64,000 nucleotides of DNA, from the NCBI GenBank assembly GCA_902728285.1, contig CACVBU010000292.1:2036977-2100976 (forward strand), in the 5' to 3' direction. The stretch is from Clytia hemisphaerica. Taxonomy: Eukaryota > Cnidaria > Hydrozoa > Leptothecata > Clytiidae. Positions 3,901-57,128 of this stretch are shown one piece after another. Below the pieces are notes generated by a model. The model was not told the DNA's origin. It saw only the letters and a list, made by a program, of their open reading frames with translations, and made no database searches. Within the stretch, counting starts at the first letter, position 1. The number at the start of each line of letters is the position of its first letter. The translations under genes and the position numbers were made by a program.

Positions 3901-4200
3901 GTGGAGTTATTTATAACTTAGATTAATTCCCAGATAATTAAACCACAACATTCTACTTACCTCTCTATTACTCTCAACTTACTATAGGCTAGATGCACAT
4001 CACTCTTACTTACTATAGCCTAGATGCACATCACACTCTACTTACTATAGCCTAGATGCACATCACAAGTATAGTGTCAGAGAGAAGTGAGCTAGGTACA
4101 CAAGCTAGAGGAGCCTGGAACCTAGTCCAGCCCACATGGTCTTAGGCTTATTTAAGCTCTGGCCCTCCTTGAGCACAGGTCCCTCAGATTTTCAGATTCA
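3901..4200 (+). repeat. Split direct repeat A1 (left end)
   Basis: This 300-bp segment is repeated at 9045-9344 with one difference seen (ATTACT versus ACTACT near 3967). It contains three tandem copies of a unit around CTTACTATAGCCTAGATGCA. It includes the first possible gag ATG (4136). It probably carries the promoter for genomic RNA, which is inference from position. Confidence 0.95.
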
Positions 4201-6007
4201 GACTTTTAGTTTAGCAATCCTCACTTTACATTGTACCACCATGAAAATCTGTACTATCATCATTTTTGCCTGCCTAAGCTTATCTTTAAAACTTGGTAGT
4301 GCAACACCTAAGAAAAAGAAATCAAAGAAAAGCTCTAACACAATAACGTCAGCAGCAGCATCCACAACTCCTACAACCCAACAACAGACAGAAACATCAA
4401 CAGCAACCTTCACTCTAGCTCCAGATGGCAATCCAATTCCACAACATAATCCTGCAATCTCTCCCCTCACCAACCTGAACACTTTCGGTAACCTTAGCCA
4501 AGGTGGCTACCAATCGTACGATGGTTTCTTACTCAACGATCCAATGATGCCAAGACCTAGCGGCTCGATCATCACTGAATCCCCAAATCCAATTTTACCT
4601 ACCCAAACTCCAAGACCGGCGGCAGAAGACACATCAACAGTTCCTCTCTCGATGATGCAACAGATCCATGTAAGACCACCCCTCGACGACCCAAGAATTT
4701 TCACCACCCCAGCTTCACCTCGTGGCGAGCATCACCACCCATTCGTTTTACAAACCATGTCCAGCCGACAGCAACATCCACGTTTTGCTGCCATCCACCA
4801 ACCCCCTGCTGTAGCGACCCCAGCACAAGTCACACTACGTCGTCCTGCCACCATGTTGGATCCTCTTCTAACTAGGCCTCCAATAATGACAAGAAGCCAA
4901 TCACAGGAAAACCATCTAGGCAGCCTGGCGCCATTGATCGCTCAACTTACAAGCCAGTTGAGGGAAACGTCTGAACAACAACAAAGAAGCCTCCGTCATG
5001 CCGCCCAATTGGTGTCGTCGTGTCGTCCCTCGAACCCGTCGTCGGGATTGAATGCGAGTTTTCCAGACCCTCGGCTGCCGGTCCATCAGCAAGACACGTC
5101 AAATATCCATAATGGCCTTTTCGAAGCTCCTTTGCATGTTCCAGCCGTCCAGCAACAATCGTCATTGCTTCCGCCCGCGCCTGCAAGAGTTATTCAACGA
5201 ATTCAACGCGGTGAGTTTATTAATCTCAACTCCCTTCTCCCCCAGAACATAAATGATAAGGACAAAAAGTCGCTGAAGGTTCTAATTGATGGGGATAGCC
5301 TCAGCCTTGCTCAAGACGATGCCTGGAACGATACCCCGAAGGACTACAAATATAAGGTGATTGACATGCAATCGTGGCTCCTAGCTTGGACTGTGTTTAT
5401 GCAAATTTTTCTATTTTACCGTCCTCATTTAACTGAGCAACTGATTAGGTACCAGCAATTCATTTCAAACCTGGCTTATACCTACAACTTCGGCGCATGG
5501 TACGCATATGATCAGGCATTCAGACACCATGTTGCAAACAATCCATCGGAACGTTGGGACCAGTCAAATGACTTAATTTTTAACCTACACGTCAGGGGCT
5601 CCCAAGGAAGGGGTAATTGTTACTTTTGTGGGGGGTCCGACCATCTGGTTTCCAGTTGCCCTAGGCGGGCTTCTGGAAAGCGTTCGTTTGCGCCTCAGCA
5701 GTCAGGTAACAGCGCCACAGCGTCCCGTGCTCGCTCCTTCTTGCAGCCTGCCAACTCTGCTTTTTCCACCCTGAGCCAGTCTGCTCCTGCGCCCAGTCAG
5801 CCCTTTCTCGCCCCTCAGGGTGGGCAGCGCCAGTCTTCATTCCCACGCCCCCAGAAAGCCCAAGCCGCAGGAACATCAGGGGAAGTGTGCTTCAGGTACA
5901 ATCAGGGCCTCTCATGCTCAGGTTGCACCCGCGTCCACAAGTGCCTCGCTTGTGGCATGGACCATCCCATCATCCGATGCCCCCACGTCGCCAGAGGGGG
6001 CAACTGA
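4136..6007 (+). CDS. gag: Gag-like protein of the Ngaro-like element
   Basis: The 623-residue frame starts at ATG 4136 inside repeat A1. A second start at ATG 4241 lies just outside the repeat and opens with a hydrophobic segment (MKICTIIIFACLSLSLKLGS) followed by a lysine-rich patch. The N-terminal half is rich in Pro, Gln, Ser and Thr and of low complexity. The C-terminal third carries a zinc knuckle C-X2-C-X4-H-X4-C (CYFCGGSDHLVSSC, about residue 495). A second Cys/His cluster ends in CLACGMDHPIIRC (about 595-610), the arrangement seen in DIRS-group gag proteins. The expected role is nucleocapsid binding of the element RNA. The 3' end overlaps the RT frame by 188 nt. Which start is used cannot be told from sequence. 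Confidence 0.88.
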   Translation: MVLGLFKLWPSLSTGPSDFQIQTFSLAILTLHCTTMKICTIIIFACLSLSLKLGSATPKKKKSKKSSNTITSAAASTTPTTQQQTETSTATFTLAPDGNPIPQHNPAISPLTNLNTFGNLSQGGYQSYDGFLLNDPMMPRPSGSIITESPNPILPTQTPRPAAEDTSTVPLSMMQQIHVRPPLDDPRIFTTPASPRGEHHHPFVLQTMSSRQQHPRFAAIHQPPAVATPAQVTLRRPATMLDPLLTRPPIMTRSQSQENHLGSLAPLIAQLTSQLRETSEQQQRSLRHAAQLVSSCRPSNPSSGLNASFPDPRLPVHQQDTSNIHNGLFEAPLHVPAVQQQSSLLPPAPARVIQRIQRGEFINLNSLLPQNINDKDKKSLKVLIDGDSLSLAQDDAWNDTPKDYKYKVIDMQSWLLAWTVFMQIFLFYRPHLTEQLIRYQQFISNLAYTYNFGAWYAYDQAFRHHVANNPSERWDQSNDLIFNLHVRGSQGRGNCYFCGGSDHLVSSCPRRASGKRSFAPQQSGNSATASRARSFLQPANSAFSTLSQSAPAPSQPFLAPQGGQRQSSFPRPQKAQAAGTSGEVCFRYNQGLSCSGCTRVHKCLACGMDHPIIRCPHVARGGN

Positions 6008-7658
6008 GTCACTTGGGAATCCTTCCTCCCAAGAGCTGGACCTTCTCTCAGAGGCAGCATTCCCTCCCCACGTTGTTATTTTTTCCCCTATTCTTGTTAA
6101 AGCTCTTGATTTTCTACTTTGTGGTTATGACAGTTACATTCACTCATACTTAGTTTCAGGTTTTCGTAACGGTTTTCATGTTGGTTTTTCTGGCCCTCTT
6201 CCAACTAACTCTACAACAAACAACTTTTCAGCATCACTCAATGAGGAAGCTATCTCCACAGCCATTGTCAAGGAACTTAAACGCTCACACACTGCTGGTC
6301 CTTTTGCATCCCCTCCCCTTTCCAATTTCAAGTGTTCCCCTCTTGGCGCAGCCCCTAAGAAAGATGGCACTCAACGCATAGTCCTTGACCTCTCATCCCC
6401 TCGCGGTTTTTCAGTCAATGACGGTATCCCCGCAGAAGAGTGCTCTGTCCATTACACCTCCTTTGACGATGCTGTGGAGATGGTTAGATTGTTTGGCAAA
6501 GATTGCTTTCTCGCCAAGGTTGATCTCAAGCACGCTTTTAGACTTTGCCCTGTCCATCCTAATGACTGGCACTTGCTGGGCTTCAAATGGAGGGGTAAGT
6601 ATTATTTCGACATGTGTCTTCCATTTGGCATGAGATCTTCACCTTTTATTTTCACTTGCTTCGCTGACGCTTTGCTTTGGATCCTGGTCAATAAGTTTTC
6701 TATCCCCAGTATCTGCCACTACCTGGATGATTTTTTATTAGCAGGCCACTCCCTCCAGGACTGCTTACTTAAAAGGGATAAAGTTTTCCTAGCTTTCTCC
6801 TTGCTTGGTGTCCCCATTTCGGAGGACAAGCTGGAAGGCCCAGCTCAAGTCCTCACTTTTCTTGGTATCGAAATTGATGTTCAGGCTTCTACTTTGAGAC
6901 TTCCTTTACCGAAACTTACAGAATTGCGCGGCTTAGTACTTCTTTGGTCCACTCGACGCAAATGCATTAAACGAGAGCTGTTATCATTGATTGGTTCACT
7001 TTCCTTTGCTTGTCGTGTTATTAAGCCCGGAAGAATTTTTCTCAGACGTCTTATTGATCTTGCTCACTCTGTTCGCTCTCTGCATCATCACATAGACATC
7101 TCGGTCTCAGTTAGGGAGGATCTTGCCATGTGGTCTGTGTTTCTACAGTCTTGGAACGGATGTTCTTTTTTCCAGCAGCCAACTACATCTTCTTTTGCCC
7201 TCAATTTATTCACTGATGCTTCTAAGCTGGGCCTTGGAGCCTTCTTCCACAATCAATGGATTTCTGAACCATGGCCAGACGACACGGTAGGTATCAACAT
7301 CGCTCTCCTCGAGTTGTTTTCTGTCTTCACAGCCATCAGCACATGGTCAAACCAGCTCCAGCACAGGTCCATCTGTGTCTTCACGGACAACGAGGCTATT
7401 GTCACAATATGGGCATCAGGTTCCTCTAAGGATGCGGTTATTTCGGCACTTATGCGTTCAATGTTCTTTCTCTGCACTCGTCACAATATTTCCATCTCAT
7501 TTAAGCATGTTCCAGGTGTTGATAATGTCTATGCAGATCTTCTTTCTCGGTTGCAGGTCGATCATTTCTTGTCAATTTGCCCTTCCGCACATCCGCTTCC
7601 ATCACCAATCCCACCGGCAGTCTGGCAGTGTTGGAAAGATCTTTGGTCAGCTTCTTAA
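5820..7658 (+). CDS. Reverse transcriptase / RNase H of the Ngaro-like element
   Basis: The frame is open from 5820 (a GTG) to 7658, about 612 codons. RT motifs are KVDLKHAF with catalytic Asp about 235, LPFGMRSSP (267-275) and the active site YLDD (301-304). RNase H follows, with FTDASKLG (D466), LLELF (E498), FTDNEA (D523) and VDNVYADLLSR (D573), a complete DEDD set. The first ATG in this frame is at 6480, already inside the RT domain. The enzyme must therefore be reached from gag by a +1 frameshift or by splicing. No methyltransferase or SGNH hydrolase follows. The last 82 nt overlap the recombinase frame. Confidence 0.93.
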   Translation: MGSASLHSHAPRKPKPQEHQGKCASGTIRASHAQVAPASTSASLVAWTIPSSDAPTSPEGATESLGNPSSQELDLLSEAAFPPHVVIFSPILVKALDFLLCGYDSYIHSYLVSGFRNGFHVGFSGPLPTNSTTNNFSASLNEEAISTAIVKELKRSHTAGPFASPPLSNFKCSPLGAAPKKDGTQRIVLDLSSPRGFSVNDGIPAEECSVHYTSFDDAVEMVRLFGKDCFLAKVDLKHAFRLCPVHPNDWHLLGFKWRGKYYFDMCLPFGMRSSPFIFTCFADALLWILVNKFSIPSICHYLDDFLLAGHSLQDCLLKRDKVFLAFSLLGVPISEDKLEGPAQVLTFLGIEIDVQASTLRLPLPKLTELRGLVLLWSTRRKCIKRELLSLIGSLSFACRVIKPGRIFLRRLIDLAHSVRSLHHHIDISVSVREDLAMWSVFLQSWNGCSFFQQPTTSSFALNLFTDASKLGLGAFFHNQWISEPWPDDTVGINIALLELFSVFTAISTWSNQLQHRSICVFTDNEAIVTIWASGSSKDAVISALMRSMFFLCTRHNISISFKHVPGVDNVYADLLSRLQVDHFLSICPSAHPLPSPIPPAVWQCWKDLWSAS

Positions 7659-8608
7659 GACAGTCTGTCGCCCAATCCACATCAGCCACTTATATGACAG
7701 GAGTTCGCTCCTACATCAACTTTTGTGGTTCTCTTAGCATCCTTGCTTTTCCAGTACGTGAATCTTCATTGTGTTACTTTGTCACAGCCGAAGCCAACCG
7801 AGGCCTGGCGCACGGATCAATCAAGGTTTACGTCTGTGGAGTACTTCACCAAAATACGTTGCTTGGTTTTAGTTCATCAATGTCTTCCTACCCTCTTCTG
7901 TTTCACACACTACGTGGTATCCGCCGTGCCCAAGGTAACTCTCGTCGCAGGGCACCAAAGCTTCCAATAACAGTTGAACACATGTTTCGTATCGCCAATC
8001 ACATCCGGCAGTCAAAAATGCCTACCAGAGACAAATTTATGTACATGGCAGCAGTTCTTACAGCATTCTTTGGACTTCTTCGGGTCTCTGAGTACACCTC
8101 TCCATCTACAACTCACTATGACAGCTCACTACATCTAACGAGATCAGACATCTCATTCAACAGACAGGTCAGTATCATGTTCCTGCGCATCAAGGGTAGC
8201 AAAACAGATCCTTTTAGAGTTGGACACACCTTGCGCATCTGTAGAGTCCCTGCGCTCCTTGACCCAGTCACTGCTATGCTCTCTTACCTGCGTTACCTAC
8301 CCAATGACCCACTCCCTCTCTTTCGAACTGTCCAAGGACAATTCCTTACACGACGACATATTAGCAATCTACTTTCACAGGCGCTCCCGGGAGTCAACCA
8401 CATTAGCACCCACAGCTTTAGAATAGGTGGTGCTTCTGCTGCTTTGTCTGCTGGCGCTTCTGATGCTCTTATCAAAATACTCGGTCGATGGTCTAGTGAC
8501 TGCTACATCCGCTACTTACGAGTCTCTGACAACCTTGTTGCTGACTTCCAAAAACTTATGGCAAAGGTATCCAGTACTACGTCCGTGTGGGACCCTGACA
8601 TGATCTAA
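7577..8608 (+). CDS. Tyrosine recombinase of the Ngaro-like element
   Basis: About 343 codons are open from a TTG at 7577. The first ATG encodes residue 40. The C-terminal catalytic domain shows Arg I in FGLLRVSEY (R169), the Lys in RIKGSKTDP (about K209), the HxxR box HSFRIGG (H279, R282), the Trp of GRWSSD (W305) and the nucleophile region CYIRYLR (Y310 or Y313). All catalytic positions are intact. In this group the enzyme inserts a circular DNA intermediate without target duplication, which agrees with the clean junctions. The frame overlaps the RT frame at -1, so a second recoding event or an internal start is needed. Confidence 0.93.
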   Translation: MPFRTSASITNPTGSLAVLERSLVSFLRQSVAQSTSATYMTGVRSYINFCGSLSILAFPVRESSLCYFVTAEANRGLAHGSIKVYVCGVLHQNTLLGFSSSMSSYPLLFHTLRGIRRAQGNSRRRAPKLPITVEHMFRIANHIRQSKMPTRDKFMYMAAVLTAFFGLLRVSEYTSPSTTHYDSSLHLTRSDISFNRQVSIMFLRIKGSKTDPFRVGHTLRICRVPALLDPVTAMLSYLRYLPNDPLPLFRTVQGQFLTRRHISNLLSQALPGVNHISTHSFRIGGASAALSAGASDALIKILGRWSSDCYIRYLRVSDNLVADFQKLMAKVSSTTSVWDPDMI

Positions 8609-32100: not shown

Positions 32101-35100
32101 ATAGCATTTTTAGTTTTCTCACAACCTCACTTTTTAAACACCCGGTAGCTTTTGTGGCCTGCTTTTTAGAAAAATAACATGAAATGCCAGATTGACATTG
32201 GTTCGGAAACCTTTTTCTAATTTTACTTTGTGACGATTTTCAAAACATAATCATATTGTTCTTTCAATATAGTTTAGGTGGTCGACTCATGTAAACTTTG
32301 TCGACACAGGCTGTAAAAGATTTTCTACACGTTGTTGTTGTTGATAAAAGATTTTTGTTTTAACCAAGGTACTATAAATGATATTTGACATGTATTCGTC
32401 AAGCTTTTGTTCCCACTACAGAACTTGATAGAGAATGGAGTGAATTGGAGACAGTTTTATGGAAAGAGTTAACGAAGACGTCAGATGAAGAAGAAACGAG
32501 CGGAGATGAGGAGATGGAGGAAGACCAAGGAGAGGATGAAGAAGCATTTCAAATTTATGAAGATGACGAGGATGGTTTAGATAAGTGCGTCTTCTGTCAT
32601 CCTAGCTGTCGGTTTTTCCCGCTCTATATACTTTGTTATTGTCTCCACTGTTCCTCTCGCGGTCTCTCAGGATTCTGTAAGCTTGCTAGGTATCAAATAG
32701 GCTTAATTTGAATTCAGCATTAGAACAAGATTTCTCCTAAAAGTAGAATGAAATAGAAAAAAGGTTAAATCTTCGTTTGACAAAAAGGTTAAACCTTCGT
32801 TTGACTTGACTTGCCATTTGACTCGACTCGTTTTCCTTTTTATTACAGAGCCTTATTGAAAGTGCAAGGATTTCTGAAAGAGAAATTACACGACAAGGCG
32901 ATCAAGATGTTGAGCAGGGTGCTTGAGGTGTGGGGAGATGTAGAGGAGTTGCAAGTGTCTGATGAAGATGTGCAAAAGATGATGGAAAGCTCCGATGAAG
33001 TTGAGGAGGATGAAGATGAAGAGGACTCCGAAGAAACGGAAGATAAACAATCACGGTATATATGGTGATTGGCTGTTTAAGTGGTTACCTTCATGGTGTA
33101 CGCAGGAATTCCCACCTATACCTCTAATCTAGATCGTGAACGTTCTGTTTAGTGCACTACAAAATGGAATGTAGTCATAGTATAGCTCAGCATTCAGGAT
33201 GTAATAAAGCTAAAAAATCTTCGATTTCCTTACAACGGATGCGTATGGGAACTGAGATGTAGATACTCGATATTCCTTCTCTCGAATGCAAATACCGTTT
33301 GTTCTTCATGTTCTGATATCTTCTTACTTTTAAGGGAGAAGAAATTAAAGAAAAAGCTGTTCCTGTTGAAGAAAGTATATTGCTGTAAGTTTCTTCTATT
33401 TGATGATGTAACCAACATAAAGTAAGCTCACGTTTATTCCAACTTCTATTATTACAAATCTCTTAAAATTCTTTCTTCAATTTGAATCTGTCTGTGATTC
33501 GAACAAAGAAGTTTTCCCGTTCGATTTCCATTTAGCGAAAGTCTCAACGTTTTCTCCGTAAAGAGGAGGCGCACTCCCTTTCATTTGATTTAATGGACTC
33601 ATCCCAAAACGCTTGAAACATTTTGTAATCCTGAATGAAACAAAACGTTCAATTCACTATTAAATAGTCTCTTTTCCCTTTGAATGATCTAAAACCTCTA
33701 TTTGGTTTCGAATGAAGTGAAGCTATAAGATTTCTGTTTCTTTTGAATGTATGTAGTGAATGCCAGTGGTAATGATATGGAGATTGATTTGGACGCTGTC
33801 ACTCAACAACAACCCACTGAAGAACAAATCCTCAAAAATACTCAACTTGAACAACAAAAAGTTCTCGTCAACTACCTCAAGGTTGATCATTTTTGTGCGA
33901 CTGGTTAATTATTTTTTATATGCGAATTAAAACAAAGTGGACACTGAAAATTTTCTAACTCGAAATTATTTCGCTTTAAATATTGCAAAGTCTATGACTT
34001 TGGGTTGTGTGTAAAATATTCTGAAAGTAAAGCTCTCCGTCCTTATCCCACGAACAGGATTGTGTGAATTTCGCGCATCAAATGCGAAGAGCAATTCCAA
34101 TCCTTTGCCAACACTTGGGCTCAAAAACGAACTCTGACGTTTTGGAAACCATGGACTTCTTCATTGCTGCCCATGAGTTCGGATTGGCTCATTCTGAAGA
34201 AGGCATTCGCCGCATGGCCAACCTGGTCTGGTCACGTGACCCCATCGTAAAGAAAGCTGTGGTCACTGCTTTCGAACGTTTATATTTGGACATTGCATGC
34301 GATAATCCAAGGTTTGTAATTGTTTTTGTCTTGTTTTCTGCTAATGAAGGTTACATTTTCTACGAAGTCTTCTAAGCCTGCTTCACATTTTCTATGAAAC
34401 TTAACATTTCCATGGTATTTGCAAAGCATTTGTTGGAATTATATCTTAGAAAGGTGTCGTCTCTCGTATTTCCATTTTTACACACTTAACTATTTTATCT
34501 TTCTACTTTAGAAATAAACCAACGTTAATTGTCAACAGTTTAACATCGCTTATAACGAGTGCAAATCTTGGTGAATTGACTTCCCTCGAGGAGCTGGTAT
34601 TTATTTTACCATTGTTAATTTTGAACCTATTTTGAACGTAGCATATACTGTTTTTGAGAACTCAAAATTCCCATTTGCCAAGATACCATTCATAACATTA
34701 ATATGGCATCATCAGTTTCTGAAAGCTATGTTTCTTATTTCAGCTATGCGAACTGATGAAACAAGACTTGATTCCTCAAAATGTCGTCCAGTTGTTATGG
34801 CAACGTTTTGCATTGAAACTACCGCAAACAACAGAGAAGGAACAGCGCGGTGCTTTGAACATTCTTTCCATGGTAGCAGGCGCTGAAAAAGACATCATTA
34901 AATCCAACTTGAGCGTCCTTGTTGAACACGGTCTCAAATATAAATCAAATTTCCTTCTGGCTCGTGATACGTGTAATGCTATTCTGAAGATCAAAGAAAA
35001 ACAAAAGCTGGGTGAAAACAAGGAGCCTTTCCGATTACCAACCGAACACGGCGTATTCGTACAGCTAGAGAGCATGATTTTAGAAGGTTTAGCACAGTTG

Positions 35101-38100
35101 AATGACATGACTTGGGTTCCATTCAGTGAGGATGCGATATCAGTCATCTATCAATTGGCCGAACAACCTGACGTCATTACTGGTCGCCTGTTAAAGGCAT
35201 TGGTGCAAACACTGTTCGGTGGACCTCCAACTAATGACCAACCTCTACAACAAGGTATTTTTCAACCTATTCATCTCTTGGCTCTTTCTGTCGGTTTAGT
35301 TTTCATTTCGATTACCGCAATACTGAGACCTGAGGGACTAAAAAATCGATGGGTGGGCCAAGTTTGACGGGAAGTGTACCGGGTGCACCATAAATAAGTA
35401 TACAGGTCTGCTAAATTATTGTTAGTTTGCGTTTATTTATTTTTTATTGCACAAAAGAAAGCCTCACTTAAATTTTTGTGTATAAAACTTCCCTACAATA
35501 AATAATGAATCAACAGAAAATTCTTATCCGTAAACTAATAATCATTTAACAAACCTGTATACTTATTTATGGTGTACCCGGTACAGCCCCATGCGGACCC
35601 ATATATTTACCACAATTTTACTACGGCCTTATAATTTCACTTTATAGATGAGGACGATGTATTTCCCAAGCAATCTTCACAAGCACCGCCATCATCGTCA
35701 CAACAAAACAATAAAACACACCCACGTGTTGTTGCTAGAGTGCTCTCCATCGCAGGGTACATTGCACTCATGCATCTCTATCACTTGGACGTCAGCATAT
35801 TAAGTGAGTTGAAGCGACGTCACAACATTCAGGAGGAGGAGAAGGAGAGAAAAGGAAAGAAGAACGGCAAAACGCCAGGTGGCAGTCGAAGGAAAAGCGG
35901 TGCTCGTGATAGCAGCATACATAAGGTAGTGTAAACCTTAAAGTTGGCTTTTTGGACCTACCTGAGGTCCTATAAATAAACCCGTGTTCGTTAGTTCGTT
36001 CCTTTGTTCATTACCAGCTTTTCTCGAGATTGGCTCATTCGATTTTTCTGATTTTTTTGCTCAAGATGCATAACCAATAAACCCTCGAATGTTACGGAGC
36101 CTGATTTAAAAAAAAAAGAAAATGTGTGAAAAATTGGATCATTAATTTTTTCTGATTTTTTGCATAAAAGTAGGGTACCGTCTTGGTAAAAGATAGCTCA
36201 AGCAGATTTTCAACAAAAAAAATCTTATTTCATAAAAGGAACCTTGATCTATAAGAAACACTATTTATAAGCATACATTAATGTTCTTGGCCAAATTACT
36301 CAATCTTTTGATGAGGTAGATATTCTCTTCCTTCCAAGCGCCTCCCTTAATACCACCAACGGGGACAATCAATGATGAAAGCAAGCGACGAATTTTAATA
36401 AATCGTCACTATTTGTGTTCTGAATGATTGTTTTAACGGTCACGCTCACGTAGATATCAATTATATATGTGTTAAATGCATAACCAGGTAGGTCCATAAA
36501 AGTCTTTTATTTAATTTTCTCTCTATTTAGATCGCCTGTTTTTGTTGTAACTAAAAGAGCAAAGACTTTTTATAGCTCAATCTAAAAAAATATCTTAATT
36601 TCAAATTGACAGGATTCAGGCCTTGATGATGAGATGGGCGTTGGAGGGGCGGCCGCAGAAGATGCAGAGGCGGAATATATTCGTAAGATCTGCGAAAGAG
36701 AAATCGTCACTGGTATGAATGTTATCTGATTTCTTAAAAATTGAAATTGAAATTTGAAATTTGATTATTGCTAGGAAGTTACTTTCTTTGACAAAATAAT
36801 GCTTTAGGAAAAATGTACAGTCAGTCACTTTAATTGGGTTAATTTTCGGGAGATTTAATTTCGCAAGCCAATGTTTTGAAAAATTTCGTGTTGATTTAAT
36901 TTTGCGAATGAGTTTTAAAGCAGCTGAAAATGGCCTTAAAGGTGGCAAAATGGAACAATTAGAACGATTTTTGCATCGATGATTTAGATAAACGATAAGA
37001 AAGTATTTAGTCCATAAACAGCCAGTAAGCTTACTTGCTGCTTCACTGGAGGAGATTAAAGAGTCAATCGTTGTTTTAGGTGACAACCTATTGAGTGTAT
37101 TCGCTCCAGTTGCAGTGATGATTTGCAAAAACCCGTCAGCTTACAAAAATGCTGAATTACGATCCAGCGCTGCTTTGGCTTTGTCCAGATTTATGATGGT
37201 CAGGTATAGATTGCTTTTGTACTGCTGCTCATCTTTTGACATATTGCCCCCACTGGAACCCTTTTCGAAAAAATTAGTTTTTATTTTGCGTGCTAGATAT
37301 TTCAGCTTTATTTTGCGTGCTAGATATTTCAGCTTTATTTTGGTTCTCATATTGGTTGTGACAAAGCATAATACTAACTTGATTTTGGGTATTTTCTTAC
37401 ACTTAGTTCTGAATTTTGTGATCAGCATTTGCAACTTGTTTTCACCATATTGGAAAAGGTTCGTATAATTTATTTCGAAAACATGCTTTCTGTGTACGGT
37501 TTTTATCGATTTTCCGGAATGGATTATTTTTAGAAGGCCATACAGAAGAATTAAAGCTAAAGAAGGAATTTTGAACAATATCTTTTTAAGTTAATTTTAC
37601 CTCGTAGACATTTCGAAAAGAATAATTATAGATTGGAAACGCCCGAAAGAAACTTTTTGCATTATATCTGTTTCATTCAGTCTGAATTTGCGATCGTGCG
37701 TTCCAACATGATGATCACTTTGGGCGATCTGTGTTTCCGCTTTCCCAACCTCATCGAACCATGGACACCAAATCTCTATGCAAGGTAATCGCACCTTACA
37801 TTTCTACTGAGCAACCGTCTATATCTAAGAAAATGAGAAAATATTAGAGAGTATCCGTGAAACCAAATTCGGCATTAAAAAAATGTCCCCCTGTATTCCA
37901 GGCTTTATTCAATTTACTGATGGACACCAGATAATATGTTTATCCGGTGCCATCAGTAAGCATCGAACAGTTGAACAATATGCGGCGAACGAGGTTGAAA
38001 ACCAATCTATTCTTACCTTGGCTGACCTTTGAATTTGACAAATATTTTACGAGCCTGGTGATCAACACCCGGTATGTTTTCTTGAGAAAAAAAAAACGAT

Positions 38101-52281: not shown

Positions 52282-53665
52282 TACTTTATAAGAGTTAATT
52301 TTTTTAGCAATTTTAAGCCTCGTTGTTCTTGTAAAATTGTTTCATCAAGTAAAGTAGATTTTAGATTAGCTTCAATCTCTACTTCTTTTTTTTCCCATGC
52401 AGTTCAAATTCTAGGCGAAATTTTCGACTTCAAGTCGTCTTGTCTTCATTGTTTTGATGCTAAAGACAGTGAAGTTTTTTATTATTCAGCATGACATAGT
52501 GATCAGGAAAAGGTCTTTTTGATACCTTGAGAGCTTTTAATTACAATGACCCAGACATATGCTAGTAAATAGTTAATGTTTACCAAATTATTCCCTCTCT
52601 AAGTAGACTGATGAACTTCTTTAATAAAAAAGCATTTAACACTACGGCAAGAATTTCAAGATGGCAGTTAAAGTGATAAAAAAGTGTAACATATAAACCA
52701 AATATAATAAGGTACTTCTTTTGAAAAATGAATACTGTATACTTCCTCACTGCTTTTTTGAAAATATTTTGTTATTATTTTTTTAACAGGGATGTGTAAT
52801 AGCGGAGCTGGATAACGCACATTTGAAAAAGCCCTCTTCTATCTCTGTACCCTAACATTAAAATTTGATAATGAAATTTAATTTTTTTAATTACAAACTC
52901 GTGAAATTTGAATTTCCTCTTAGCCAATGATTCTGCTGCTGCATTTATCCTTCACGATTAAAAACTTTTAATTATCACGAGGGTTTGTAAAACATCGGTG
53001 GATGACAATTAAAAAAAAAGAAAAACATTGTTTTCATTAGTAAAGTTATGAGGAAGTTCTTCAGTAGCATTATTTATAGTACTTTTTCATTTGAAATACA
53101 CCGCGGGGTACCTGACTTTCTAACTGGTATTGTCAATTGAAACATTATTTATCAAAATATTCACATCCAAAATTTTAAAGAAGAATCCTGAAAGCTTCTC
53201 AAATTCAGAACACACGCTGATAAAATTAGATTTCATTTACAAGGAAGCTTTTGGGGTATCTTTTGCAAATATTATTTTGATGAAAAGCGGGAACATTGTA
53301 GCAAAATATGTGCAAATGTACTGCATGAATATACTTTGTCTGCTTCATTTTTCTTATAAAAACAGAACACTCAAGGGGACAAAGATGGATTTCTATTATG
53401 AACAGTTTAGAATAGAAAAAACAAAGAAGCAACCCGCCAAAGAATTCTTGTCCTTCATCCAGCTTTGCTATTACATATCCCTGGTTATTATGTAATGTTT
53501 AAAAATCGCTACTTTGGTTCTCTCAGTCTTCTTTCGTAGGGTATTTTCGAATGCACCTAAATGATCAAGACATACAAAAAGTTTTAATGATGTCAGTGGT
53601 AATGGCACTTTCACTGTATATTTTTTTATGGCGTGAGATGCTAGGCAATTCGATCTGCCTAGCCA

Positions 53666-53729
53666 GGGTGCAGTATGCAGTGCTGACGAGTCCTAATAAG
53701 GACGAAATGCATATGCTGCTCTGCCACCC
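53666..53729 (+). ncRNA. Type I hammerhead ribozyme, copy 1
   Basis: The conserved core is complete: CTGACGA (53683-53689), stem II GTCC/GGAC with loop TAATAA, and GAAA (53704-53707). Helix III is minimal, with TGCAT closing on itself, then the NUH triplet ATA, with cleavage predicted after 53713. Stem I pairs GCAGTG with TGCTGC (with G-U pairs), then an internal loop, then GGGTG (53666-53670) with CACCC (53725-53729). The stem I internal loop and stem II loop are placed for the usual tertiary contact. Confidence 0.92.
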
Positions 53730-54502
53730 AAATCTCCTGAAAGAAGATAGTTGGACAGAAATTCTTTGAATTTCTTCACATATGGGTAAAGGCCACATTT
53801 TTGGTACACCTGTCCCTTCCGTTACGCTAAAAAAAATTTCATCCTCAAAATTGCTTAAAACCTATTTATTTGGATATCTATGATGATAATCAAGTATGTG
53901 CTCCTCTATATTACCTTTTTGCAGAACTGTAGGACCCTAGAAGTTGTTGTGGTTGATTTTTTTCTGATTTTCAACCAATAACTAAAAACTTGTTATTTCT
54001 ACAAAAAGAAAACTTATAAGACTGTACTTACTCTTAAAATGTTTCTACAAAGTGTTTTAACCAATTCCTAATCGTTTTTCATGAATTTACATTTTCGGGT
54101 TGGAGGGGTAGCCTAATTTGCGTAACGGAAGGGACAACTTTCAAATTTTTAATTAACATCTTTACTAGGAAAAAACTTGTTTCAAAAGATAGTTTGAATT
54201 TTAATAGTCAAATATGATCTTTTAACCTAAAATGATAGAACTAACCAGAACTAACTATATAAACTTACAAATACTCCTAAAAACTGTAAATATTAGGTAT
54301 AGAATAAGCGTAACGGAAGGGACAAATTTTCTGAAAATTTTTCAAAATTTGAAAATAGCTGTTTTGGGCCATCCAAGCCTCATCCCAAGTTTTAGATGAT
54401 CCCTAAAATTTAGGTGACCCACTGTAGGTGACCCCTGAAACCGAAAATGTGACTTGCATTTCAGTTTTTCTTTAAAATTTTACATTGAGCATTCAAAAAA
54501 GA

Positions 54503-55630
54503 AGATGCGAAAACGCGTCCTATGGAGCCTAAAGGGTTAATGAGACCCCTGGTAAAATTTGTTATGGTCAAAACAACTTCGAATAACTCCTAATTGTCAT
54601 TTTCAGGCATTTTGAGCAGTTTGGAGTCTTCAAAAAAAATCTTTTATTTAACCCTTTGAGCGCGCATTAGTTTTGAAAATGTTGAAAAATTTCAATGATT
54701 TTTTTTTGAAATTTGAAACTTCAAAATGGCGTAAAAGCTTGTAGCTTTTGATTCAGACACTCGTTTTGGTACCAACCATTGGAAAGGTAATTCTATACTC
54801 TTTCAAAAACATTTGGTTTCTTTCCCTTTAAATCAAGTCCTAGGGAGCTGAGACCCAAGCTTTGGGACTTGGTATTTTGGCTGTTTCAGGACGCGAAAAC
54901 ACGTCCTATGGAGCCTAAGGGTTAATGAGACCCCTGGTAAAGATTTTTTATGGTCAAAACAACTTCGAATAACTCCTAATTGTCATTTTCAGGTATTTTG
55001 AGCAGTTTGGAGTCTTCAAAAAAAAATCAAAAATTTTTTGGTTAACCCTTTGAGCGGGCAGTAGTTTTGAAAATTTTGAAAAATTTCAATGATTTTTTTT
55101 GAAATTTGAAATTTCAAAATGGCGTAAAAGCTTGTAGCTTTTGATTCCGACACTCGTTTTGGTACCAACCATTGGAAAGCAGTGGCGTGGTGGCAGGGGG
55201 GGCCAGGGGGGCCAGGGGGCCAGGCCCCCCCAGCGGAGCCCTTTTTAGAAGGGGCGCCCAAAAATAAGCGACGCCAAGAAGGATTTTTCAGGCGCCCATA
55301 TCGAAAGATTGACAAATGAAAAAACAAAAATGGCGCCCCTTATCACCTCAAAAACTCAAAATTTTCTGGCTCGCTTCGCTCGCACACTCCCTTTTTTGTG
55401 TTCATAATGAGCGTATAGAGAGGGGCGCCAAAAACAAAAAATCTTTAAAAAGGGCGCCATATTTGCCACCCCAGATATATTTTCCCACCACGCCACTGCA
55501 CTGTTGGAAATGTAATTCTATACTCTTTCCCTTTAAATCAAGTCCTAGGGAGATGGGACCCCAACTTTAGGACTTGGTATTTTGGCTGTTTTAGGACGCG
55601 GAAACGCGTCCTATGGAGTCTAAGGGTTAA
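54503..55630 (+). repeat. Tandem duplication (about 380-bp unit) inside the TIR element
   Basis: Unit borders are marked by GACGCGAAAACNCGTCCTATGG at 54503, 54890 and 55595. The first unit is 387 bp. The second is 373 bp after removal of the hAT-like insert and its target copy. Both carry GGTACCAACCATTGGAAA. Confidence 0.85.
55180..55503. mobile_element. hAT-like MITE, CAGTGGCGTGGTGG ends
   Basis: The left end CAGTGGCGTGGTGG is matched by CCACCACGCCACTG followed by CACTG at the right. TTGGAAAG (55172-55179) and TTGGAAAT (55504-55511) form an 8-bp duplication with one mismatch. The first unit of the surrounding tandem duplication shows the uninterrupted target. The insert is much more GC-rich than its surroundings. 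Confidence 0.85.
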
Positions 55631-56761
55631 GAGATAAAAAGAAGTTATTGTAGTGTAGCAAATGTGAGAACAGTCTACAATAGGTCTTTCAACAATGCAA
55701 TAACTTCAGATATCTTGGCTTTGAAAAAAGAGACACTATATTGAACATCCAAGTCCCTGTAACACTCCCTTTTAAAAAAGGCGTAACGGAAGGGACATCC
55801 AAAACGGAAGGGACCTGAAGGGACATCAAATTTTCCAAGGAGATAACTCCCACCACATTGTTAATATAAAGTTTAAATGTACCTGCAAGTAAGAAGTCTA
55901 ATGAGGGTAGTAGTCAACCAAAAGGAAAAGTTTTTAAGTCAAAGACTTGAGATGCTGTTCAATTTAATGTTTGCGTAACGGAAGGGAAAAAACCAAGGCA
56001 CATTTCCAATGGGAAGGACTGTCAATGAAAAAACATGTCAAAAATAGAGGATAATGGTTTGCAAATTGAATTTGGAGTAATCCCAATGGTAACTTGTGAG
56101 AATTTAACATAAACTATAGCTATTTGACAAAGATTTTCTTGAAAATGAATTTGCGTAACGGAAGGGACAAGATCAGAGTCGCAAAACATGCTTTTTAGAA
56201 AAATGCAAAACCTGAGCAACAGTGAAAAAAGTATTTACTCAAAATATTGTGAAAACTCGCTCCTATCAATATTAGGTGGACTGAAAAAAAATTGAAAGTG
56301 AATATTTTTATCCCAGTTGAAGAAAAAACAATTTTGAATCTTTTTTTTTTTGCATTTTTCGTAGAAAAATGTGAAATTTAGACTTCTGCAGGGTCTGTAA
56401 GAGGAAAGACTGTCCTATTGCTGGCCAAACTCTAATTGTAAGGGCACTTTCTACCCCAGATCAATAATCAATTGGAAGTTTTGCAAGTTTAATGCTAGTT
56501 TTCAAGATATGAGCAGTAAAAGTCAAAAGTGTAACGGAAGGGACAGGTGTACCAAAAATGTGGCCTTTACCCATATATATTCTTTTTTGAGACCATGCAG
56601 TGTTGAGGCTTTCCTCCCTCTTGGCTCTCTTCAAAGCCTGACTCCAGAGGAGTCATTCACAGAATTCCTTAGGGAATTTCCCTTTGTCCACTTCTTCTTT
56701 CAGTCTGCGCCACAATTAGTTTTATGGCGTGAGATGCTAGGCAATTCGATCTGCCTAGCCA

Positions 56762-56825
56762 GGGTGCAGTATGCAGTGCTGACGAGTCCTAATAAGGACG
56801 AAATGCATATGCTGCTCTGTCACCC
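56762..56825 (+). ncRNA. Type I hammerhead ribozyme, copy 2
   Basis: This matches copy 1 except for T instead of C at 56820, in the stem I internal loop. Core residues are unchanged and cleavage is predicted after 56809. Confidence 0.92.
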
Positions 56826-57128
56826 AAATCTCCTGAAAGAAGATAGTTGGACAGAAATTCTTTGAATTTCTTCACATTTTAAAAAACGGTAGCTTTTGTA
56901 TCCTAAAAAACAATGCTTTTTGTATGTGACTCAAACAATGTTTGGTTGCCACATGGTATTTTTCAGTCTTTGCTGGGTCACAGTGAAAAGTTACTTTACT
57001 TCAGTTTGTATATTTGAAATAATCATTTTAATCGTTTTCTCTGCTGATTTATTAGATATATATATATATATTACTAGTTAGGATAACATTATAAACGGCG
57101 AAGACATGACGTAATGACTCCGTACATA

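Follow-up and report, generated by a model that had tools for sequence, protein, structure and literature searches.

What kind of element places two hammerhead ribozymes on one strand, 3,096 nucleotides (nt) apart, with an inverted-repeat DNA element between them is the question raised by a locus of Clytia hemisphaerica (assembly GCA_902728285.1, contig CACVBU010000292.1, positions 2,036,977-2,100,976, forward strand; this whole stretch of 64,000 nt is referred to here as the window). The first-pass annotation had proposed an animal retrozyme dimer interrupted by a DNA transposon. The locus is a member of the animal retrozymes without long terminal repeats (non-LTR retrozymes), and the useful new fact that it contributes is a fixed internal 3' end. 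Our best explanation, which taken as a whole we consider probable, is that a recently active retrozyme of this class, with a unit of 303 nt whose RNA would be cut, closed into a circle and copied by target-primed reverse transcription from a fixed start, inserted here once over about 1.5 laps and was later hit by a TA-targeting DNA element.

The features of this copy are listed below, with unit positions (u) numbered from u1 = 53625; the extent of hammerhead 1 was counted from its cut, and the assignment of its stem I is our own reading.

53624..53782, + strand: first, 5'-truncated retrozyme part (u303, then u1 to about u159), defined by the direct repeat and a 100% alignment to an uninterrupted unit on contig C897
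53666..53729, + strand: hammerhead 1, with stem I containing internal loops, CTGACGA core, stem II GTCC/GGAC, GAA, an ATGCAT palindrome replacing stem III, and the cleaved A
53713..53714, + strand: predicted cut 1, after ATA (putative cleavage)
53781..53782, no strand: left-hand TA of the DNA element's target duplication, within the retrozyme TATATAT tract
53783..56573, no strand: inverted-repeat DNA element of 2,791 base pairs (bp), a later insertion
56574..56575, no strand: right-hand TA of that duplication, read from the sequence
56574..56719, + strand: remaining part of the TATATAT tract, then the spacer of the unit (about u158-u302), 98.7% alignment to the unit
56720..56877, + strand: second copy of the 158-nt repeat, ending at u157, the 3' end of the insertion (direct repeat and unit alignment)
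56762..56825, + strand: hammerhead 2, with one C-to-T change in outer stem I
56809..56810, + strand: predicted cut 2 (putative cleavage)

The direct repeat of 158 nt occupies 53624-53781 and 56720-56877 (99% identity, 3,096 nt from start to start). Both same-strand type I hammerheads of the earlier description were recovered by a strict scan (CTGANGA core, 4-bp stem II, A15.1/U16.1, cleavage base A, C or T, 5-bp stem I), with cuts predicted after 53713 and 56809, and the coordinates bear out the TA-flanked inverted-repeat interruption, whose removal together with one TA leaves 303 nt between the cuts (3,096 - 2,791 - 2). Exactly these two hammerheads were found on both strands of the window and none in 150 dinucleotide-shuffled windows, and they show the type I architecture with intact core that is characteristic of animal non-LTR retrozymes. 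Five further loose CTGANGA...GAAA matches in the window were not kept by the strict scan and were dropped. One hammerhead region folds 4.0 standard deviations (sd) below its shuffles, and the 303-nt unit, folded as a circle, exceeds 200 shuffles in stability by 5.9 sd. The copy starts at u303, ends at u157 and measures 3,254 nt including the DNA element; it carries two hammerheads because it spans about 1.5 laps, one outcome of lap length.

The search for other genomic copies suggested with the original description was made across the host genome (417 Mb, 951 contigs) with three queries, of which only the best matches were scored (40 of 692 for the repeat, 40 of 125 for the spacer, 40 of 529 for a 66-nt tail). 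The 158-nt repeat found at least 41 matching places in at least 23 separate loci, to which the spacer added at least 7 loci and the tail at least 17; one refuting outcome named in that description, a lack of other copies, thus did not occur. The 303-nt unit is confirmed at the DNA level because these copies include uninterrupted arrays, with a spacing of 302-303 nt on C897 and 303 nt on C663. Copies are dispersed and comprise from 1 to about 13 tandem units, of a length within the 150-450 bp of short tandem repeats, and the G+C content of the unit is 0.44, below the 50% typical of animal retrozymes. Older copies also exist (spacer-query loci at 77-91% identity). The longest array, on C932 (loci L038-L039), has about 13 units, and similarity to the family unit is greater on its 3' side than on its 5' side (95% to 100%); it contains an N and a shortened unit. 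What had looked like a second unit of 757 nt on C797 (L041, 2837-2846) is an assembly gap (a run of N) with a duplicated flank, and the locus was counted once. Two retrozyme loci, L043 and L037, have a common right flank, CTATTCCCTATTCCTAGGTTGAATAGG; one of them may be an insertion into a repeat or part of a duplicated segment. The expectation that the element encodes no protein holds, the unit being too short for a mobility protein; a stop-to-stop frame of 154 amino acids (aa) at 56401-56865 crosses the unit, but it joins DNA element and unit.

The ends of these copies carry most of the argument. Alignment to the repeated unit covered 47 insertions, 46 of them with both ends (L083 was dropped, its 3' end lying beyond the fetched stretch). 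The 3' ends fall at u157-171 in 45 of the 46, and in 29 exactly at u163, the end of CTTCACATATATAT, a TATATAT tract located 74 nt after the predicted cut, whereas the 5' ends are spread over u1-u303. Among the first 30 loci the 3' ends are non-uniform (Rayleigh p about 4e-12) and the 5' ends show no departure from uniformity (p about 0.2; the largest 15-nt cluster, of 7, equals the 95th percentile of random sets). Insertion lengths range from 81 to 3,975 nt. Within 20 nt to the left of the insertion TATATA or ATATAT occurs in 21/46 cases, against a background of 1.8% in 11,875 stretches from the same loci; to the right of the insertion end it occurs in 5/46. Inverted flank matches show no excess. 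Read from genomic sequence, this combination is the signature of target-primed reverse transcription with a fixed internal start and a circular or multimeric template.

The retrozyme part of the initial proposal thus gains support from the genomic copies and its dimer part does not stand as a fixed layout: because insertion size varies between 81 nt and about 13 units, with 3' ends nearly constant and 5' ends variable, the "dimer" is a by-product of lap length and not the design of the element. The same variation bears on a plant-type LTR retrozyme, in which the 158-nt repeats would be LTRs around a core. The window copy alone does resemble two terminal repeats, but in the copies sampled repeat length tracks the point of 5' truncation, many copies fall short of a full unit and lack a second repeat, and the hammerhead is of type I and not of the type III found in the fixed-length LTRs of plant retrozymes; this reading was rejected and is given practically no credence. 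Spread as satellite DNA, through unequal crossing-over or the integration of DNA circles and with no reverse transcription, could draw on the existence of arrays such as that on C932, and (TA)n homology could guide DNA circles to their targets. Crossing-over of a DNA circle should, however, place both ends at the tract, where only 2 of the first 30 5' ends lie (u157-171), and dispersed partial copies down to 81 nt have one fixed and one free end. With fixed 3' ends at dispersed sites a satellite-only origin was rejected, and we regard it as very improbable.

If the copies arose by reverse transcription, their template can be narrowed down further. No 5' end among the 46 lies at u87-93, around the cut, so cut linear monomers were not the main template, and copies with spacer, hammerhead and u163 end run continuously across the cleavage junction 89/90, which argues for a circle or an uncut multimer. 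An uncut linear multimer would produce the same element with the same end signature, and continuity across the junction is all that the copies themselves display; moreover, for a Penelope-like element in vitro the hammerhead was reported to be dispensable for insertion and unprocessed RNA to be the dominant substrate (PMC11167929). Most source loci seen are, however, too short for long multimers, three of the 46 5' ends (u155, 157, 161) lie one lap from the start, which lends weak support to a circle, and circular RNAs are reported for coral, mussel and axolotl retrozymes (PMC7229834). Because of these published circles a circle appears the better guess, and the multimer is judged unlikely, though worth keeping in view. 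The palindrome AUGCAU between GAA and the cleaved A leaves a lone copy with at most a token stem III, and a review states that with a weak helix III single type I motifs often fail to cut and dimers do not (PMC7761336); since this is so, we infer that a lone hammerhead within the circle would be quiet.

The mechanism that we favour would proceed as follows. Given the hammerhead, and by analogy with published animal retrozymes, RNA transcribed across a copy or array would be cut by the hammerheads into 303-nt monomers, which would be closed into circles of the same length. A reverse transcriptase would then prime on nicked AT-rich, often (TA)n, DNA and start copying inside the unit, at UAUAUAU, 74 nt beyond the cleavage junction; copying would run for a fraction of a lap to many laps and stop at variable points, so that the resulting insertions would share a fixed 3' end but differ in their 5' ends and in how many hammerheads they hold. 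The account in PMC7229834 leaves open whether retrozymes are primed by a DNA target or by a small RNA; the insertion ends described here favour target priming.

Several observations weigh against this explanation. The Rfam check proposed at the outset gave no match of the window hammerheads at the gathering score (52), yielding only sub-threshold matches to Hammerhead_HH9 (24.1 and 22.9 bits, E 0.014 and 0.034), and the minimum-energy fold of one hammerhead region pairs stem III letters with stem I letters, unlike a hammerhead. Scoring of best matches over-represents young copies and makes the copy counts lower bounds. One insertion, L077, ends at u32; the window copy itself ends (u157) in AT-rich DNA without (TA)n; 25/46 left flanks have no TATATA tract, and at these loci a target duplication does not stand out (the mean match is 3.00, and 2.22 with sd 0.42 when flanks are swapped). 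Where animal non-LTR retrozymes have target duplications, these are longer than 4 bp; in the present family many loci show (TA)n matches. With a TA tract in both unit end and target, the exact junction in (TA)n cases is ambiguous. The 5' ends, lastly, are not fully even, with 10/46 at u44-50 and 7/46 at u211-226; the former group lies directly 3' of a hairpin that we read at u16-39, which suggests stalling there. A search of the host genome with RF00163 also gave no match, but this is uninformative, as control genomes likewise gave none.

The 303-nt unit has no room for a reverse transcriptase or a GIY-YIG nuclease and is thus not itself a Penelope-like element, even though a start at a fixed internal point downstream of a hammerhead, as in those elements, is indicated by the genomic ends in 45/46 insertions. 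Penelope-like elements have been named a strong candidate for retrozyme mobility (PMC7229834), and the terminal sequences of a bdelloid Penelope sufficed to integrate an unrelated gene in trans (PMC3846280). Whether a Penelope-like element drives the present retrozyme we consider about evenly balanced. The host genome is rich in such elements (at least 123 GIY-YIG matches at E<=0.001 among the best 150 of 401 candidates scored), several of which have a hammerhead-like motif shortly before a fixed 3' end. They were sorted into groups by score and alignment, for part of the matches only; G8 was left out (copies still aligned at the end of the fetched stretch, 3' end not reached), as were L143 and L150, which did not match their groups. 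In F1, whose protein has GIY-YIG above and RVT_1 below the cut-off, the 3' ends of eight copies, aligned to L049, lie no more than ten nt apart, and five of these copies are 5'-truncated, with matches starting at inner positions 294-1452; L046, L051 and L053 show by eye AT-rich target duplications of about 7-11 bp. End points are also shared within each of the groups F2-F7. Hammerhead-like CTGANGA...GAAA motifs precede the end in the scanned copies of F1, F6, F7, G9, G10 and G11, and a TTGANAA variant does so in G12 and, by eye, in F2-F4; F5 has neither motif before its end.

Some side observations on these groups may be recorded. The UUGANAA core near the 3' end of F2, F3, F4 and G12 (L056-L064, L148-L151) has both C3 and G8 changed, with a pair still possible and cleavage only putative; many Penelope-like motifs seem to have one extra base before stem II; and in many families (L069-L075, L137-L146, L049 at about 1865) a T-run followed by AG, resembling a 3' splice site, stands directly before the motif.

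Within the Penelope-like set F4 is a candidate driver, not a proven one. It has an open frame of 857 aa that continues past the fetched stretch and contains RVT_1 and GIY-YIG, both above the cut-off; its predicted cut lies 50 nt from its end (63 in F1, 74 in the retrozyme), and TATATA or ATATAT follows the end in 10/13 copies (13 usable of 16 stretches; L100, L105 and L111 were dropped, being without anchor), against 1/9 in F1, 0/8 in F3 and 0/7 in F7. Three results speak against F4: no sequence is shared by the retrozyme with the nine Penelope-like loci compared, F4 included; two F4 copies with readable duplications have (TA)n on the element side (by eye); and TATATA lies within 20 nt to the left of only 1/7 F4 5' junctions (by eye). 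Because of the latter two, at least part of the (TA)n at F4 ends is a tail of the element itself, in contrast to the (TA)n to the left of the retrozyme, and the idea that F4 (TA)n represents target DNA was dropped. A retrozyme locus (L034) and an F4 locus (L130) have the same sequence on their left, ending CTTCACTATATATA, where a further repeat family with a (TA)n terminus may come to its end; loci L089 and L096 have another left flank in common, ending CTATATATAT.

The absence of shared sequence and the differing F4 junctions would suit a long interspersed nuclear element (LINE) with a microsatellite-like 3' end as mover in place of a Penelope-like element. A hammerhead-like motif followed 50-74 nt later by a fixed 3' end is, however, common to the retrozyme and the Penelope-like groups F1 and F4, as in the Anolis element (PMC11167929), and F4 likewise ends in (TA)n; a LINE driver seems to us rather unlikely. 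Returning to the Penelope-like partner, we tentatively propose, with somewhat less than even confidence, that the retrozyme lives as a minimal parasite on F4, the group ending in (TA)n, or on a close relative of F4, keeping only the hammerhead and the start tract, so that a ribozyme-made circle would be copied by the partner's reverse transcriptase from the fixed TATATAT start. If so, the number of hammerheads in a genomic copy would be a lap count, and animal retrozymes generally would carry a fixed 3' end that names their driver.

The remaining features of the window concern the interrupting element and its surroundings. The arms of the 2,791-bp element are 49 nt long and 98% complementary, and the element is probably non-autonomous, since no frame of at least 150 aa lies wholly inside 53783-56573. 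Between 54115 and 56546 it has six GCGTAACGGAAGGGACA-like motif copies and longer internal direct repeats, and at about 55181-55500 a G-/C-rich stretch bounded by CAGTGGCGTGG...CCACGCCACTG (by eye) is probably a small element nested in it. Elsewhere, long overlapping retroelement frames occupy 4109-8608, the middle one with RVT_1, in an order that we take to recall DIRS-like elements, and an exon-like frame at 34723-35364 has similarity to condensin complex subunit 1 (E 1.3e-17); of six frames in the window, five had no named Pfam match.

The near-identical copies that this genome contains give unusually clear evidence on how animal retrozymes integrate: the 3' end is fixed and internal, the 5' ends are free, and (TA)n is preferred. 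A Penelope-like family that shares the genome, has an open frame and ends similarly makes a directly testable partner. The animal non-LTR retrozymes of PMC7229834 resemble the present family in their features: their repeats, of about 170-400 bp, are non-coding and arranged in full or partial tandem, they carry a type I hammerhead, their G+C lies below 50%, and their copies are dispersed in genomes that also contain Penelope-like elements. That 3' ends are fixed at a TATATAT tract and 5' ends vary, as in the present family, does not figure in the accessible text of that account, and no description of such a signature for retrozymes was found in the open-licence literature as available. Plant LTR retrozymes (PMC4918200, PMC7761336) are likewise non-coding, with tandem hammerheads and a proposed circle, but their hammerheads are of type III, their LTRs measure about 350 bp, and they have 4-bp duplications as well as a primer binding site and a polypurine tract. 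Terminons (PMC12477314) resemble the retrozyme in that priming is aided by RNA end repeats near the hammerhead pairing with the DNA end, yet they are giant telomeric coding elements, whereas here a non-coding unit of 303 nt is found at internal AT-rich sites. Penelope-like elements differ from the retrozyme, which has no protein and a canonical core, in that many of their motifs in this genome are minimal or altered. The Anolis element Poseidon (PMC11167929) provides a parallel in the order of its parts, with a hammerhead followed by an internal start 85-92 nt after the cut (positions 26 and 111-118), compared with 74 nt here, and with AT-rich targets and partial tandems in both.

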